NCBI GenBank assembly: GCA_025782575.1
Contig: JALGYY010000046.1
Location: 310,001 to 374,000 of the forward strand
Length of the DNA: 64,000 nucleotides
Reading direction: 5' to 3'
From: a bacterium
Lineage (GTDB): Bacteria; Orphanbacterota; Orphanbacteria; Orphanbacterales; Orphanbacteraceae
Made by a program: the position numbers and the translations under genes. Below, one piece after another: positions 4,209-39,475 of the stretch. Below the pieces are notes generated by a model, which worked only from the letters and a program-made list of their open reading frames with translations, did not search any database and was not told where the DNA came from. Position 1 is the stretch's first letter. Every line of letters begins with the position of its first letter.

Positions 4209-6443
4209 TTGGCGAAGAAGCGTATATATCAGATCGCCAAGGAGTTCAGTGTTTCCAGTGAAGCGCTGCTCAAGATTCTCCGAGGCATGAAAATCGAAGC
4301 GAAGAGCCACATGAGCTCTATCGATGAGAGCCTGGTCGACGAAGTTCGAAAGAAGTTCGAGGCGGAGAAGAAGACGGTCGCCCGTGAGGTGGAACGGCAG
4401 CAGGAGCTGCATGAAGCTAAGAAAATTGAGCCGCCTAAGGCTCCGGTGAAAAAGCCCGCCCCACGGCCGGCCGCTTCGCCACCGCCAAAGGGAGGCTCGG
4501 CCCGATCGGCCGGGAGCCCCCCACCAAAGACCGGCCGCAGAAGTGGCCAGCGTGGCAGGCGGGCCCGGGTAGTCGATGAAAAGACGGTGCGCGCCAGTAT
4601 CAAGAAAACTCTCGCCGACCTCGAAATCGGAAAGAAGAGACGCCGGCGGCGGAAGCATACCCATTCAGGTGCTGAGACCGAAGAGGCGGGTGACACCAGG
4701 AAGATCCAGATTACCGAACTCGCTACGGTGGCGGAGCTCGCATCTGTCCTCGAGGTGAACCCGAGCGAGCTCATTGCCAAGTGCATGGAGTTCGGATTGA
4801 TGGTGACGATGAATCGGCGCCTCGACCCTGACACGATCGAAACGATTGCCGACGAGTATGATCTCGAGGTGGAGTTTCTCTCTGAGTACGGTTCCGATGA
4901 GCCTGAGGGTGATGAGGCGACCGGCTCAAGAGGGGAACCGCGTCATCCGGTCGTCACGATCATGGGTCATGTCGATCATGGAAAGACCTCTCTGCTCGAT
5001 TTCGTTCGGAAGTCAAATGTGATTGCCGGTGAAATGGGCGGCATAACGCAGCACATCGGGGCATATGAGGTGGATCTCCCCGAGGGCAGGATCACTTTCC
5101 TCGATACCCCGGGCCATGCCGCCTTCAGTGCCATGCGTGCCCGCGGAGCCCAGGTGACCGACCTCGTCATTCTTGTCGTGGCGGCGGACGATCAGGTCAT
5201 GCCCCAGACAGTGGAAGCGATCGACCATGCGAAAGCTGCCGGGGTTCCAATCATCGTTGCCATTAACAAAGTAGACAGACCGGAAGCCGACCCCATGAGA
5301 ATCAAGCAGCAACTTGCGGAGCAGGGCGTTCAGGTGGAAGAGTGGGGCGGCAAGGTAGTGGCTGTCGAGATCTCCGCCAAGACCGGGCAGAACATCGACA
5401 AACTGCTCGAATACGTTCTTCTCGAAGCTGAATTACTGGAGCTGCATGCCGACGCCACAAGAAGGGCTCGAGGCACCGTAATTGAATCCAGGCTGGAGCC
5501 CGGCCGTGGGATCGTCATTTCCTGTCTCGTGCAGGACGGCACTCTGAAGAAGGGCGATCCCTTCGTGGCCGGGAGCTTTTTCGGCAAAGTGCGGGCTCTC
5601 TTCGATGAGCGTGGCAAGATCCGAAAAGACGCAGGTCCATCTTCGACTGTTGAACTTCTTGGCTCCACCGGCGTCCCGCAGGCCGGCGATTCATTCACTG
5701 TATTCCCCGATGAACGGTCAGCTAAAGAAGTTGCCTCGAAGAGACAGCAGCAGCTTCGGGAGCAGACGCTCCGCTATCAGAAACGCATGAGTCTCGACGA
5801 ATTGTTCGCGCAGATCCAGAGTGGAGGCACGCAAACACTTTCGCTCGTGATCAAGGGTGATGTTGACGGTTCTGTAGAAGCGGTAACCGAGGCGCTCAAT
5901 CAGCTCTCGACTGATGAAGTCAAAGTTGATGTCATTCACAAAAGTGTCGGTACGGTCACCGAATCGGACATTCTCCTTGCGGCGGCCTCGAACGCCGTGG
6001 TAATCGGCTTTCACACGAAGGCCGAGAGCAAGGCTGCCCGCCTCGCCGAAAAGGAAGGCGTTAGCATTCGGTTTTATTCGATTATTTACGAGGCCGTCGA
6101 TGAAGTCAGGCGTGCGATGGAGGGACTGCTCAAGCCGGAGTCCCGCGAGAATGTGATCGGCAAGGTCGAGGTGAGGGAGATTTTCACGATCGGCCGTACC
6201 GCTGTGATCGCAGGTTCCTATGTTCTTAGCGGTACCATCAAGCGGAGCTCCAAAATTCGTGTGCTACGCGACGATCTGACTATTTTCGAGGGAAAACTGG
6301 AGACTCTTCGACGCTTCAAAGATGACGTACGAGAGGTCCAGGCCGGATATGAATGCGGTATCAAGCTGGACGGATTCAATGACATCAAAGAGAGCGATAT
6401 TCTGGAGGTATTCGAGATCGAGGAGGTAGCGCGTACGTTGTAG
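4209..6443 (+). CDS. infB: Translation initiation factor IF-2
   Basis: 744 aa from the TTG at 4209, chosen because the family N-terminus ([20 protein letters not shown]) begins there and AGGAG lies 8 nt upstream; the frame stays open further upstream but encodes no family sequence. After a Lys/Pro/Ala-rich linker and a second IF2-N motif, the GTPase domain has GHVDHGKTS (about 253-261), DTPGHAAF and NKVD, followed by domains II-IV. IF-2 brings initiator tRNA to the 30S subunit and promotes subunit joining. It lies in the conserved nusA-infB-rbfA-truB cluster. Confidence 0.96.
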
Positions 6444-6451
6444 CGCGTGTC

Positions 6452-6733
6452 ATGATCGTCGCTACCTGCCGAATCGATCTCTTTATTCCTGACTCCGGTT
6501 CACTGAAGTCGAAACGAGGTGTACTGAAGGGCCTCAAGGAACGACTGCGCAAGCGTTTCAATGTATCGGTCGCTGAAGTGGATCACATGGATCTCTGGCA
6601 GAGATCGACCCTGGGGGTCGCCGTCGTCTCGAATGACAGCCGCCACGCGAATTCGGTTCTCTCTTCAGTCGTGAATTACGTCGAGCGGGAACCGCGGGCC
6701 ACTATGACCGACTACCACCTGGAGATCTACTGA
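6452..6733 (+). CDS. YlxP family protein (DUF503)
   Basis: 93 aa. The whole protein matches the DUF503 pattern: short strand MIVATCRIDLFIPDSGSLK, then SKRGVLKGLKERLRKRFNVSVAEVD, a central LWQRSTLGVAVVS, and a terminal helix. The family is almost always between infB and rbfA, as here; its biochemical role is not firmly known. The gap to infB is only 8 bases, so it is cotranscribed. Confidence 0.88.
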   Translation: MIVATCRIDLFIPDSGSLKSKRGVLKGLKERLRKRFNVSVAEVDHMDLWQRSTLGVAVVSNDSRHANSVLSSVVNYVEREPRATMTDYHLEIY

Positions 6734-18835: not shown

Positions 18836-20179
18836 ATGGCCCGCCTCAAATTGAGTGTCTCCGGAGCACGGGGGATCGTGGGCGATTCTCTGACACCCGA
18901 AGTTATCCTGCAACTGGGGGCCGCGTTCGCATCGCTCCGGCCGGGGAAGCCGATCCTGGTGGGAGGTGACACCCGGATCAGCGGACCAACGGTAAGGCAC
19001 GCACTGATCGCCGGCCTTACCGGCGCCGGATCACCCGTTCTTGATTGCGGAATCTGCCCGACTCCATCACTGGTACTCGCCTCTTCCGAGCTTGACGTAG
19101 GGGGGGGCGTCCTCGTAACTGCAAGCCACAATCCGATCGAGTGGAATGCGCTCAAGTTTATCGGACCGGACGGTTTCTTTCTTAGTCCGGAAGAGGGGGC
19201 ACTTCTCCGGCGGCGATTCGAGTCCGCGGATTACACGTGGTCCCGTTACGACCGGCTCGGTTCGATTGACAGAGGTCCCGACGTCGTCACCCGTCATCTC
19301 GAGCGGGTGATCAACGCACCTCTGATCGATGAGGCCGCGATTCGGATCGCCCGATTTCGCGTGGCGGTCGACGGCACAGGTGGGGCGGGGGCCGCTCCCG
19401 CACTCGAGCTTCTCAAACAATTCGGCTGTGAAGTAAAGGCTCTCCATTGCGAGGTGGACGGCTACTTCCCGCGTGCCCCGGAACCAAAACCTGAAAATCT
19501 GGGTGAACTCGCACGGATGGTGAAAGACGAGAATTGCGATATCGGTTTCGCTCTCGACCCGGACGGAGACCGTCTCAGTCTTGTGAGCGAATCGGGCCGC
19601 CCGCTCGTCGAGGAGGCGACAGTCGCTCTCGCCACCGACTACGTTCTGGGCAAGCGCAAAGGGCCGGTCGTAGTTAATCTCTCGACCTCGCGGGCCGTTG
19701 AAGACATAGCCGCTCGGGAGGGAGTTCCATTCTATCGCACCCCCGTTGGGGAGGCCCACGTGGCGGCGAAGATGGTCAGGACGAAAGCCGCGATCGGCGG
19801 AGAGGGGAACGGCGGGGTCATGTTCCCCGATGTTCATCCGATGCGGGACGCGTCTACCGGAATGGCGTTGATTCTGATGGCCATGACCGAGGAACGTTCT
19901 CTGGAAAAGCTGGTGGCCCGGATTCCTCAATATGTTATTCTGAAAAGTGTTGTAAAGGCCGATACCTTTGACGAGGGACGTCTCGAGGCCTCTCTGATCG
20001 AGCGGTTCGGTAAGTGCGATAAAGACTCGACTGACGGCATTCGGCTCTCGTGGAAGGATCGATGGGTGCATGTACGCCCCTCCAATACCGAGCCTGTCGT
20101 CCGCATTCTAACGGAAGCCCCGGACCGGAAAGTGGCGGAGGGACTCCAACGAGCAGCGTCCGAAGCGATCGGCGCCTGA
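18836..20179 (+). CDS. glmM: Phosphohexosamine mutase (GlmM-like, alpha-D-phosphohexomutase)
   Basis: 447 aa. The superfamily's four signatures are present: phosphoserine loop TASHNP (Ser97), metal loop DPDGDR (241-246), sugar loop GEGNGG (322-327) and phosphate loop RPSNTEP (about 417-423). Position directly before glmS makes glucosamine-6-phosphate to glucosamine-1-phosphate conversion most likely, feeding UDP-GlcNAc synthesis. The sugar loop is GEGNGG rather than the bacterial GlmM form GE-x-SGH, and is closer to archaeal-type mutases; phosphomannomutase/phosphoglucomutase activity is an alternative. Start ATG follows GGGGAG. Confidence 0.82.
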   Translation: MARLKLSVSGARGIVGDSLTPEVILQLGAAFASLRPGKPILVGGDTRISGPTVRHALIAGLTGAGSPVLDCGICPTPSLVLASSELDVGGGVLVTASHNPIEWNALKFIGPDGFFLSPEEGALLRRRFESADYTWSRYDRLGSIDRGPDVVTRHLERVINAPLIDEAAIRIARFRVAVDGTGGAGAAPALELLKQFGCEVKALHCEVDGYFPRAPEPKPENLGELARMVKDENCDIGFALDPDGDRLSLVSESGRPLVEEATVALATDYVLGKRKGPVVVNLSTSRAVEDIAAREGVPFYRTPVGEAHVAAKMVRTKAAIGGEGNGGVMFPDVHPMRDASTGMALILMAMTEERSLEKLVARIPQYVILKSVVKADTFDEGRLEASLIERFGKCDKDSTDGIRLSWKDRWVHVRPSNTEPVVRILTEAPDRKVAEGLQRAASEAIGA

Positions 20180-20221: not shown

Positions 20222-22048
<1,827 letters not shown>

Positions 22049-22059
22049 GAGTGAATGAC

Positions 22060-22443
22060 GTGGGGAAAGAGGTGATCCGTACCAAACGAGCCCCGGCGGC
22101 AGTCGGACCGTACAGCCAGGCCATCCGCTCTGACGGTTTTGTTTTTACCGCCGGCCAGATCCCCCTCGATCCGGCGACCGGAGAGATGATCGGGGTGACT
22201 GTGGGCGAACAGACCGATCGGGTTCTGCAGAATCTGGCAGCCCTTCTCGAAGATTCCGGCTCTTCCCTGGAGCAGGTCGTGAAGACAACCGTCTATCTTA
22301 TCGACATGGATTGCTTCGGTGAAATGAATGAGATCTATGGCAGGTTTTTTTCTGAATCGGCCCCCGCGAGATCCTGCGTGCAGGTGGGTGCTCTCCCCAA
22401 GGGTGCCCTCGTCGAAATTGACGCCGTGGCCCTCATGGTTTGA
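22060..22443 (+). CDS. ridA: RidA family reactive-intermediate deaminase
   Basis: 127 aa. It hydrolyses enamine/imine intermediates made by PLP enzymes. The signature is intact: APAAVGPYSQAI, FTAGQIPLDPATGEM, a central ALLEDSGSSLEQVVKTTVYL and the terminal RSCVQVGALPKGALVEIDAVA containing the catalytic Arg. GTG 22060 is the chosen start because TAGGAG lies 8 nt upstream; GTG 22051 is possible and adjacent to the glmS stop. It is followed after 23 bases by tRNA-Sec. Confidence 0.93.
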   Translation: MGKEVIRTKRAPAAVGPYSQAIRSDGFVFTAGQIPLDPATGEMIGVTVGEQTDRVLQNLAALLEDSGSSLEQVVKTTVYLIDMDCFGEMNEIYGRFFSESAPARSCVQVGALPKGALVEIDAVALMV

Positions 22444-22466
22444 CGTAGTGTTTGTCTCAACCAAGG

Positions 22467-22564
22467 GGGAGTGGATAGGTCCTGGTGGGCCTCGAGGACT
22501 TCAAATCCTTCTGCCGGGTGCTAATCCCATCCGGGGTGGGTTCGATTCCCACACATTCCCGCCA
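22467..22564 (+). tRNA. selC: tRNA-Sec (selenocysteine, anticodon TCA)
   Basis: 98 nt with encoded CCA and the discriminator G typical of this tRNA. Acceptor GGGAGTG pairs with CATTCCC, the eighth position being a G/A mismatch before the T-stem; the D-stem is six base pairs (AGGTCC/GGGCCT) with a four-base TGGT loop, diagnostic of selenocysteine tRNA; anticodon stem GAGGA/TCCTT encloses CTTCAAA with anticodon TCA; a long variable arm and T-arm GTGGG-TTCGATT-CCCAC follow. The genome therefore probably recodes UGA as selenocysteine. SelA/SelB/SelD are not in this window. Confidence 0.93.
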
Positions 22565-22597
22565 AGTCTTCATCCCCCCAGGGCGGCTCCGAAAGTA

Positions 22598-23098
22598 TTG
22601 GTTCTTCTTCTGGGAACAGTCCTCCTGATACTCGGACAGCTGTGTCCAGGGATGGTATTCGCTGCAGGGGAGGAATCCTCCTCAACTGCTCCATCCCCCC
22701 TCTGGTCATCCGTTCGGTCCGCCGTTTTTCCCGGTTGGGGGCAGCTCCACAACGGAAGCCGGCTGAAGGCGACAATCCTGTTCAGTATGCGCACTTACAT
22801 AGGGGTTCGCTACTTCACAGCGGAGCGGCGGTCCCGGTTCTATCGGAACGAGCTTGACGCTACCGCCTCGGAATGGGATCGTGCTTATCTTCAGAGTAAA
22901 TTCGGCGATCATAGATCCACTCGTAACGATATGGTCTGGTGGTCGTCCATCCTTCTCCTGTATACCGTGATCGATGCCTACGTGGATGCCCACATGGCCG
23001 GTTTCGACACTGAAGTGGAGGATGTGACCAGAATCACCATGCAGATCGACCCGCTGGATAATCGGGGAGCGGCTCTGGCGCTGCATGCCCGATTCTAG
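22598..23098 (+). CDS. DUF5683-like membrane protein
   Basis: 166 aa from TTG 22598; the same frame is open upstream through tRNA-Sec but that part is tRNA. A hydrophobic signal or anchor (VLLLGTVLLILGQLCPGMVFAAG) precedes the DUF5683 signature SAVFPGWGQLHNGSRLKA and later a helix WWSSILLLYTVIDAYVDAHMAGFD. DUF5683 proteins are common in FCB bacteria and of unknown function; the FPGWGQ motif resembles TM2-type membrane hairpins. The Shine-Dalgarno sequence is weak, so the start is uncertain. It precedes lepB by 17 bases. Confidence 0.7.
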   Translation: MVLLLGTVLLILGQLCPGMVFAAGEESSSTAPSPLWSSVRSAVFPGWGQLHNGSRLKATILFSMRTYIGVRYFTAERRSRFYRNELDATASEWDRAYLQSKFGDHRSTRNDMVWWSSILLLYTVIDAYVDAHMAGFDTEVEDVTRITMQIDPLDNRGAALALHARF

Positions 23099-23115
23099 CC
23101 CGGAAGGATTGAATA

Positions 23116-23751
23116 ATGGCGAGACGCCAAACCGGCCGCCGGCAGCAGAAGAAACAGACGGGACCCCACCGGCGAAGTCTCTTCATGGAATACGGGGAGT
23201 CCGTATTTGTCGCCGCGATTCTATTTTTCTTTCTGCGGTTCTTCGTGGTTCAGGCGTTTCAGATTCCCTCCGGTTCGATGGAGGATACGTTACTGGTCGG
23301 GGATTTTCTGGTGGCGAACAAGTTTGTATATGGCGCGCGCATTCCGGGGACTGAAATGCGACTGCCGAAAATCCGGGACCCGAAACGGGGGGACATCATC
23401 GTCTTCCGGGCTCCCCACCAGGACAATGATTTTATCAAACGATGTGTTGCCGTGGAGGGGGACACCGTCCTTGTTCGCGACAATCACGTACTGATTAACG
23501 GGAAGATGACCGACGAGGAGTTTGTCGCCATCAAGGGTCCCAATTCCCGGATAAGTAACTGGGGCCCGAAAGTGGTCCCCGAAGGGCACCTCTTCATGCT
23601 CGGTGACAATCGAAACCAGAGCAGTGATAGTCGGGTCTGGGGATTTCTGGACAAGAAACGGGTGAAGGGACATGCCATGTTTCTATACTTCTCATTGAAC
23701 AAAGATACTTTCATCCCCAGGTTCAATCGTTTCTTTCGGGTGATTCGATAG
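23116..23751 (+). CDS. lepB: Signal peptidase I
   Basis: 211 aa. It cleaves signal peptides of exported proteins at the outer face of the inner membrane. One membrane helix (about 28-46) is followed by box B PSGSMEDTL with nucleophile Ser54, box C/D RGDIIVF and FIKRCVAVEGD with general base Lys108, and box E GDNRNQSSDSRVWG. The basic N-terminus stays cytoplasmic. The lepB-lepA order is common. Confidence 0.96.
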   Translation: MARRQTGRRQQKKQTGPHRRSLFMEYGESVFVAAILFFFLRFFVVQAFQIPSGSMEDTLLVGDFLVANKFVYGARIPGTEMRLPKIRDPKRGDIIVFRAPHQDNDFIKRCVAVEGDTVLVRDNHVLINGKMTDEEFVAIKGPNSRISNWGPKVVPEGHLFMLGDNRNQSSDSRVWGFLDKKRVKGHAMFLYFSLNKDTFIPRFNRFFRVIR

Positions 23752-23761
23752 GAGTGGCCAG

Positions 23762-25570
23762 TTGAGAGGCAACGATTCTCACACCAGAAATTTCTGTATC
23801 ATTGCCCATATCGACCATGGGAAGTCGACCCTCGCGGATCGGATACTGGAAACGACCGGCACCTTGAAGCATGGTCAGATGCGGGAACAGGTGCTCGACA
23901 GTATGGATCTCGAGAGGGAGCGCGGGATCACGATCAAGGCCCACGCGATCAGCATTGACTATCAATCTCCCGATGGAGTCGCCTGGACGCTGAATCTGAT
24001 TGATACTCCCGGCCACGTCGACTTTTCCTATGAGGTCTCTCGATCGCTGAAGGCATGTGAGGCGGCGCTACTGGTTGTCGATGCCGCGCAAGGAATCGAG
24101 GCGCAGACGATCGCCAATTTCTATCTGGCCCTCGAAAATGACCTGGAAATCATCCCTGTGCTCAACAAAGTCGATCTGCCGAACGCCCGGACAGAAGATG
24201 TCAGGATGGCTGTCGCCGATCTTACCGGGGATGATCCGGAAGACATATTCGAGATCAGCGCCAAAACCGGACTGGGTGTGGATAATCTGCTCGAGAAGAT
24301 GGTAAAGAGAATCCCGCCCCCTGCGGGTAGTTCCGATTCCTCCCTTCAAGCGCTGGTGTTTGACTCGGAGTTCGACCGCTTCCGCGGAGTGAACATCTAC
24401 TTGCGCGTGATGAACGGCACCGTGCGGGCGGGTGACCGAATCTGCTTTCTTTCTACGAGACGGGAATGCGTTGTCGATGAAGTGGGTATCTTCCGGCTTG
24501 GACGGATCCCCAGGGATGTACTGCGGGCGGGTGACGTGGGATACATGCTCGCCAGCATCAAAAAGATTCAAGACGCCAGAGTAGGCGATACGGTAGTGCA
24601 TCAGGGCAAAGAGAAAGTGGAGAGCCTGCCCGGTTTCCAGGAGCCGAAACCGATGGTGTTCAGCGGGCTCTACCCGATCGATAACAAAGACTTCGATCTC
24701 CTGCGGGACGCGCTTGACAAACTGCAGCTAAACGATGCCGCAGTCACATATGAGGCGGAGACCTCTGAAGCTCTCGGCTTCGGATTCCGCTGCGGTTTTC
24801 TCGGTATGCTGCATCTCGAAGTCGTTCAGGAGAGACTGGAAAGGGAGTACGGGCTGAATCTCATCAGCACGGTGCCCAGTGTCGTCTTTCGGGTGAACAT
24901 GCCGGACGGATCGGTCATGATGGTGGACAATCCTCATTCTCTTCCCGTCCGTGGTGACTTCGAGTCGATCGAAGAGCCGATCGTGAACGCGCAGATCATC
25001 GTTCCTGTCGAATATGTGGGGAATATTAACAAGCTCATTCAGGAGAAGCGGGGCGTCCATGTCTCCATGGAGTATCTCGAGCCGACCAGGGTTCTTCTCC
25101 AGTACAAGCTCCCCCTTGCCGAAATCGTCTTCTACTTCTATGACCGTCTGCAATCGGTGACACGCGGTTTCGCGTCTTACGACTACGACCATGCCGGATA
25201 CGCCCTGGCGGATATGGTCCGTCTCGACATCCTCGTGAACGGCGAACCGGTCGATGCGCTTTCAGTGATCGTACATCAGGAGAAGGCATATGCATGGGGC
25301 CGCCAGCTCACGAAGCGACTGAAGAAACTGATTCCGCGCCAGATGTATCAGGTGGCGATCCAGGCTGCGGTCGGAAGCAAAGTGATCGCGAGGGAGACTG
25401 TTTCGGCTTTCCGAAAAGATGTGATTGCGAAATGTTATGGTGGCGATATCACGCGGAAGCGAAAACTGCTGGAGAAGCAGAAAGAGGGGAAGCGCCGAAT
25501 GAAACAGGTCGGCACTGTCCAGATCCCGCAGGAAGCGTTTCTGGCGGTTCTCAAGGTCGGGGATGACTAG
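23762..25570 (+). CDS. lepA: Elongation factor 4 (LepA)
   Basis: 602 aa, normal length. A ribosome-dependent translational GTPase that back-translocates stalled ribosomes or aids 30S biogenesis. The GTPase motifs are AHIDHGKSTLADR, DTPGHVDFSYE and NKVDLP; the C-terminus has the LepA-specific domain with KRKLLEKQKEGKRRMKQ and ends in VPQEAF-like IPQEAFLAVL. The start TTG 23762 follows TAGGAG. It overlaps the HemW-like gene by 8 bases. Confidence 0.97.
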   Translation: MRGNDSHTRNFCIIAHIDHGKSTLADRILETTGTLKHGQMREQVLDSMDLERERGITIKAHAISIDYQSPDGVAWTLNLIDTPGHVDFSYEVSRSLKACEAALLVVDAAQGIEAQTIANFYLALENDLEIIPVLNKVDLPNARTEDVRMAVADLTGDDPEDIFEISAKTGLGVDNLLEKMVKRIPPPAGSSDSSLQALVFDSEFDRFRGVNIYLRVMNGTVRAGDRICFLSTRRECVVDEVGIFRLGRIPRDVLRAGDVGYMLASIKKIQDARVGDTVVHQGKEKVESLPGFQEPKPMVFSGLYPIDNKDFDLLRDALDKLQLNDAAVTYEAETSEALGFGFRCGFLGMLHLEVVQERLEREYGLNLISTVPSVVFRVNMPDGSVMMVDNPHSLPVRGDFESIEEPIVNAQIIVPVEYVGNINKLIQEKRGVHVSMEYLEPTRVLLQYKLPLAEIVFYFYDRLQSVTRGFASYDYDHAGYALADMVRLDILVNGEPVDALSVIVHQEKAYAWGRQLTKRLKKLIPRQMYQVAIQAAVGSKVIARETVSAFRKDVIAKCYGGDITRKRKLLEKQKEGKRRMKQVGTVQIPQEAFLAVLKVGDD

Positions 25571-39085: not shown

Positions 39086-39475
39086 TACAGCGAGCCGAGC
39101 GGGACGGGTGGTCGCGCGCAGGGATCGATCTCCTGCGCGAGGAAAGTCCGGGCTCCGCAGGGCAGGATGCTGGGTAACGCCCAGTGGGAGTGATCCTAAA
39201 GGAAAGTGCCACAGAAAACAGACCGCCGGGACTTGTTCCCGGCAAGGGTGAAACGGTGAGGTAAGAGCTCACCAGCGCCTCCGGTGACGGAGGCGGCTAG
39301 GTAAACCCCATCCGGAGCAAGGCCGCATAGGAGAAGAGAAGTGACCCGCTTCGTTTGATTCTCGGGTTGGCTGCTTGAGCCGCGGAGTAATTCGTGGCCT
39401 AGATGAATGATCACCGCGGGGCGCATGCGCGCTCCGAACAGGACCCGGCTTATGGACCGCTCGGCTTCGCTTGTC
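39086..39475 (+). ncRNA. rnpB: RNase P RNA, bacterial type A
   Basis: About 390 nt. The ends pair as P1 (GCCGAGCGG near 39094 with CCGCTCGGC near 39457-39465, plus AGCGA/TCGCT). The universally conserved blocks are in order: GAGGAAAGTCCGGGCTCC (CR-I, about 39139-39156), ACAGAAAACAGACCGCC (about 39212-39228), AGGTAAACCCC, GATGAATGATCA and ACAGGACCCGGCTTA. It is the catalytic RNA that removes tRNA 5' leaders. It lies between rnhA-type and recJ genes; recJ begins about 48 bases after it. Exact ends are estimated. Confidence 0.95.

Follow-up and report, generated by a model that had tools for sequence, protein, structure and literature searches.

The genome analyzed here probably carries a functional tRNA-Sec gene (selC) that lies nested in the 5' end of a DUF5683 gene, in its reading frame and on its strand, and the tRNA and the DUF5683 protein would then probably be alternative products of one transcript. 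Directly readable in the DNA are a tRNA gene, the selenocysteine (Sec) machinery, a reading frame shared by selC and DUF5683, a start codon beside the upstream stop codon, and a signal-peptide-like segment soon after the 3' end of the tRNA. The window, by which we mean the whole stretch of 64,000 nucleotides that was analyzed (contig JALGYY010000046.1, positions 310,001 to 374,000), belongs to a 4.88 Mb genome in 49 contigs that is 95% complete. The features of the locus are listed in Table 1.

Table 1. Features of the selC locus, in window coordinates
Feature	Coordinates	Strand	Evidence and remarks
glmS	20222..22048	+	TIGR01135, 817 bits; adjacent in relatives
ridA (Rid family detoxifying hydrolase)	22051..22443	+	TIGR00004, 167.5 bits (cut-off 106.25)
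Proposed full DUF5683 ORF, 216 codons, GTG start	22448..23098	+	Whole selC in frame, CCA = Pro; frame open in relatives
selC, tRNA-Sec (UCA), 98 nt with encoded CCA	22467..22564	+	ARAGORN; RF01852, 72.7 bits
Shorter rival DUF5683 ORF, TTG start	22598..23098	+	Hydrophobic stretch not preceded by a charged n-region
DUF5683 domain (PF18935)	22694..23047	+	46.9 bits (gathering score 26.7); residues 83-200 of the long ORF
lepB, signal peptidase I	23116..23751	+	TIGR02227, 159.2 bits
lepA, elongation factor 4	23762..25570	+	TIGR01393, 930.5 bits

Identity of selC and the selenocysteine machinery

The first-pass annotation had called this gene tRNA-Sec, and the assignment is borne out by its exact placement by ARAGORN (tRNA-SeC, anticodon TCA) and by a score above the Rfam gathering score of 47, with model positions 1-91 of 91 aligned. 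The alignment contains a six-pair D-stem with a four-base loop, a long variable arm, a G discriminator and the encoded CCA. No other RF01852 match in the genome exceeds the cut-off, the 12 remaining ones scoring lower. The G/A mismatch at the eighth acceptor pair, which had been described as unusual, was dropped as a special feature of this gene: it is common, since among 70 distinct CCA-ended tRNA-Sec sequences 33 have G:A and 18 have A:G, in a sample that was taken from the fetched loci and is skewed to the phyla under study.

Searches for selA, selB and selD, together with the covariance score, had been suggested as a check on function; selC is above its cut-off and all three genes are present in the same genome. 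selA scores 524.6 bits (cut-off 267.9), selB scores 378.6 bits (cut-off 242.25) and lies on another contig (C2), and selD scores 379.1 bits (cut-off 125) and contains one in-frame TGA, reading KAGUAAK. The expectation that UGA is recoded in this genome, and that genes with in-frame TGA should be re-read, holds for selD elsewhere in the genome; in the window itself a motif-filtered scan, judged by eye, gave no convincing selenoprotein among 83 TGA read-through candidates. A Sec-containing formate dehydrogenase was rejected as the reason for keeping selC, as no Fdh-alpha match listed for the seven genomes of the phylum has an internal stop, and none exceeds the cut-off. A functional link between ridA and Sec by way of aminoacrylate was entertained as a thought only and set aside.

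The selD match of G003 is without an in-frame stop, and in family f174 the selD genes of G405, G407, G409, G410 and G412 have Cys at the Sec position, with selC kept. Retention of selC beside selD genes of these kinds implies either that other selenoproteins exist in those genomes or that selC is there on its way out.

Gene neighborhood

selC begins 23 bases after the ridA stop codon (TGA, 22441-22443), just as the first-pass annotation had it. Upstream in the window lie glmM, glmS and ridA, and downstream the gene for the exported or membrane protein with the DUF5683 domain, lepB and lepA; the order glmS-ridA-selC-DUF5683-lepB-lepA is kept in all five other selC-bearing genomes of the phylum. 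The short form of the DUF5683 protein scores 48.1 bits against PF18935 (gathering score 26.7), which was passed by all six scanned proteins, from five genomes. The seventh genome of the phylum (G005, 82% complete) gave no tRNA-Sec above the cut-off; for DUF5683, the short query matched nothing there and the profile gave a single weak match. G001, one of the five, is a deposited Candidatus Eisenbacteria genome whose locus matches a part of L050 exactly.

The phosphoglucosamine mutase gene of the window (18836-20179) exceeds the cut-off of the archaeal-type GlmM model and not that of the bacterial one, and at 39096-39467 there is a gene for class A bacterial RNase P RNA (308.7 bits).

Among 80 ridA loci, tRNA-Sec is present in six, always on the ridA strand, and ridA is found within 1.5 kb flanks in 7 of the 30 loci from the tRNA-Sec scan. 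In most genomes of f174, a family of a second phylum, selD directly precedes selC. In a locus of another phylum (L112), glmS is followed by one more gene, then by ridA, selD with Sec, selC, DUF5683, lepB and lepA, and the Sec motif of selD was seen in G143, the same locus. There, ridA, the UGA-containing selD and selC stand in a row (5370-6524), the start of selD overlapping the stop of ridA. The order ridA-selD-selC is possibly the older arrangement, from which selD was lost in the window. In a further locus (L183, 1456-1968; G013), DUF5683 follows ridA directly with no selC between them, and upstream of the homologous part its frame has no ATG, GTG or TTG.

A scan of 21900-23200 gave no sigma-70-like promoter, and because of this and of the same-strand place of selC after ridA or selD in the relatives, processing of selC from an mRNA appears plausible from the sequence.

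selC and DUF5683 share an open reading frame

From a GTG at 22448, 7 nt beyond the ridA stop codon as counted from its first base, a single open frame runs across the entire selC into DUF5683 and ends at 23098. The same frame is open in the five other selC-bearing genomes of the phylum, each of which has an ATG 19 to 25 nt before selC. Start and upstream stop overlap as NTGA in several genomes, for example in G408, in several members of f174 and in G001, G004 and G006, in the last three of which the overlap is ATGA with the ridA stop; in the window the GTG instead follows the stop and has no clear Shine-Dalgarno sequence, and TTG 22598 is a possible alternative. G001 has no in-frame ATG, GTG or TTG within selC or before the hydrophobic stretch. 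The earlier description of selC as embedded between ridA and the next gene is to be revised, since selC is probably nested in frame in the 5' end of DUF5683. The start proposed for that gene about 33 bases downstream (TTG 22598) is unlikely to be the real one; it would leave no charged n-region.

To follow this frame across families, a profile built from the six ORFs was run against 386 genomes, against 47 from the G332 phylum (42 of which matched) and against five from the G075 phylum. The 55 loci examined came from these and from earlier searches and cover part of the matches from the 386-genome search; removal of G402, G417 and G420, in which there is no tRNA-Sec, left 52. Phase was named by the 3' end of the tRNA, P being the phase in which CCA is a codon. 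Open through selC in phase P were 27 of the 52 loci, 13 were in Q and one in R, and 11 had a stop between selC and DUF5683. P was found in all six loci of the source phylum, in 17/17 of f174, in one locus each of f263 and f266 and in two of four of f262, and all five loci of f67 were Q. (Of the 20 f174 genomes, 17 were examined; G411 gave no match, and G417 and G420 have no tRNA-Sec in the stretch.) The stops between selC and DUF5683 occur in f264, most of f268, G279, G390 and G143, and in no other family; with f262 mixed as well, nesting is not essential.

Across the source phylum, f174, f263 and f266, the gap between selC and the domain takes 18 different lengths, all multiples of three. In the families with stops, loci are found in all three phases, with 5/14 in P. 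As the equivalent frame is open through the tRNA in 20 of 28 tRNA-Sec genes outside the phylum, openness alone says little, and the position of the start codon says more.

Two other shared frames were seen. In L046, from the G012 phylum, selC is open into a kinase-like ORF (its translation read by eye), which we put down to chance, as L147 and L148 of the same phylum are not open. In L108, a tRNA-Pro gene (6591-6665) shares one open frame with a 557-codon ORF that lies downstream, possibly by chance, or perhaps as another nested tRNA gene.

Position of start codons

Start codons that lie at most 30 nt before selC and are not separated from it by a stop were counted in 25 genomes of the source phylum, f174, f263 and f266, four families that were grouped after their frame had been seen. 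Such a start is present in P in 24/25 genomes, in Q in 6/25 and in R in 1/25, that is, in 7/50 for the other two frames pooled. For ATG the counts are 16/25 in P and none in Q or R (0/50). Counted by genus (n = 17), starts are found in 16 (P), 6 (Q) and 1 (R), with 7/34 for the other two frames, and ATG in 10, 0 and 0. The Fisher p value for ATG is 2e-10 by genome and 2e-6 by genus, with independence overstated since the genomes are related. G421 is without a near upstream start. For comparison, 28 tRNA-Sec genes outside the phylum have any such upstream start in six cases and an ATG in three.

Downstream of selC, 20 of the 25 genomes have no canonical start codon before the hydrophobic, signal-peptide-like stretch; one is present in G006, G403, G414, G415 and G422. 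As a control, the same rule was applied to the 11 loci in which a stop separates selC from DUF5683, and in 8 of them a start precedes the hydrophobic stretch. In many f174 proteins this stretch opens with the codon that directly follows CCA, as in ILAILVTIAG (G332) and LFAVALALLI (G408).

A second register in the G075 phylum

In the five f67 loci (L175, L178, L179, L227 and L228), a stop inside selC closes the DUF5683 frame upstream. All five have a GTG in the T-arm of selC, which would give MGSIPTHSR and then, at once or soon, a hydrophobic stretch. In this phylum the predicted DUF5683 start may therefore lie inside the T-arm, an overlap of the two genes without whole nesting.

Alternative explanations

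It is hardly credible that selC is a non-functional relic within a coding sequence, given that it exceeds the Rfam cut-off and is the sole such match in a genome with selA, selB and a UGA-containing selD. More serious is the view that the two are separate genes, with DUF5683 starting after selC (at TTG 22598 in the window) and the shared open frame being inherited chance. This TTG does exist, stops are few in GC-rich genomes, 20/28 other tRNA-Sec genes are open in the equivalent frame, and DUF5683 is indeed separate in L112/G143 and in most f268 members. Against it speak the upstream starts, which occur almost only in the DUF5683 frame, the 20/25 genomes in which no start codon separates selC from the hydrophobic stretch, and the survival of one frame across 18 gap lengths when the families with stops show all three phases, and we regard separate genes as improbable.

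The overlap could also be real and less than full-length, with DUF5683 initiating inside selC, at an ATG at tRNA nucleotides 9-11 or, in the G075 phylum, at the T-arm GTG. The ATG is present in four of six genomes of the source phylum and in 17/17 of f174, and in f67 the frame closed upstream and the T-arm GTG in 5/5 fit this view. The window and G001, on the other hand, have ATA at nucleotides 9-11 and no in-frame ATG, GTG or TTG in selC, and internal initiation leaves the in-frame starts upstream of selC in 24/25 genomes unexplained; as a general account it seems unlikely. Nesting of the whole tRNA gene in DUF5683 thus remains our preferred reading.

Proposed mechanism

We infer that ribosomes terminating on ridA (or on selD in the sister phylum) would reinitiate at the in-frame start upstream of selC. 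By translating the unfolded tRNA segment they would produce DUF5683 with a long, selC-encoded n-region, and the protein would be exported. Were selC to fold first, RNase P and 3' processing would excise the tRNA, and the DUF5683 message would lose its start codon. Maturation of the tRNA and synthesis of the protein would then compete, each RNA copy giving rise to tRNA-Sec or to DUF5683 and not to both. Signal peptidase would remove the tRNA-encoded residues, the mature DUF5683 protein need not be affected, and it may be for this reason that the overlap is tolerated. More tentatively, and with somewhat less than even confidence, the selC overlap at the 5' end of DUF5683 might be a selected switch, in which translation coupled to ridA or selD decides between tRNA-Sec and the exported protein, and the two registers (the whole tRNA, and the T-arm GTG of the G075 phylum) may have been fixed separately.

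Discussion

In ordinary bacterial sel operons selC is usually intergenic. The gene described here has the same tRNA structure as those, and in the sister lineages it likewise has selD as its neighbor.

Mukai 2021 (PMC8124441) describes for Alphaproteobacteria a selC that lies inside selB, at its 3' end, presents it as the first tRNA gene nested in a protein ORF of a bacterium, and proposes a competition between tRNA processing and protein expression, mutual exclusivity being a hypothesis in that work too. The two arrangements are alike in that a whole tRNA-Sec lies in a same-strand protein ORF with CCA read as Pro, and in the proposed competition; an overlap of neighboring start and stop codons is seen here in several relatives and not in the window. 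They differ in that the host there is selB and the tRNA forms a C-terminal extension, whereas here the host is DUF5683, which is not a Sec gene, and selC would encode a signal-peptide segment at the N terminus; different, too, are the lineages and the gene upstream (here ridA or selD). The same paper cites the Armadillidium mitochondrion, with tRNA-Lys inside cox1, which resembles the present case in that the tRNA lies wholly in the coding region and in direct orientation, and differs from it in the compact mitochondrial genome, the tRNA and the gene. In passages of a 2026 review (PMC13188914), the selB case is the one nested tRNA gene mentioned. Searches of the open-access literature for selC with ridA, for nested tRNA genes since 2021 and for DUF5683 brought up no report of the selC/DUF5683 arrangement. 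In principle, then, selC in DUF5683 would follow the selB case, and what would be new is another host gene, the 5' end and other phyla.

If the proposed nesting is true, nested tRNA genes of bacteria would have a second host gene, DUF5683, unrelated to the first, with selC once more as the tRNA gene involved. This suggests that a link between the supply of tRNA-Sec and the translation of the RNA that carries it may be recurrent. Gene finders that forbid overlap with tRNAs would then misplace the DUF5683 start in the phyla concerned. The locus also allows a direct test of whether, on a bacterial mRNA, the passage of ribosomes and cleavage by RNase P are mutually exclusive.
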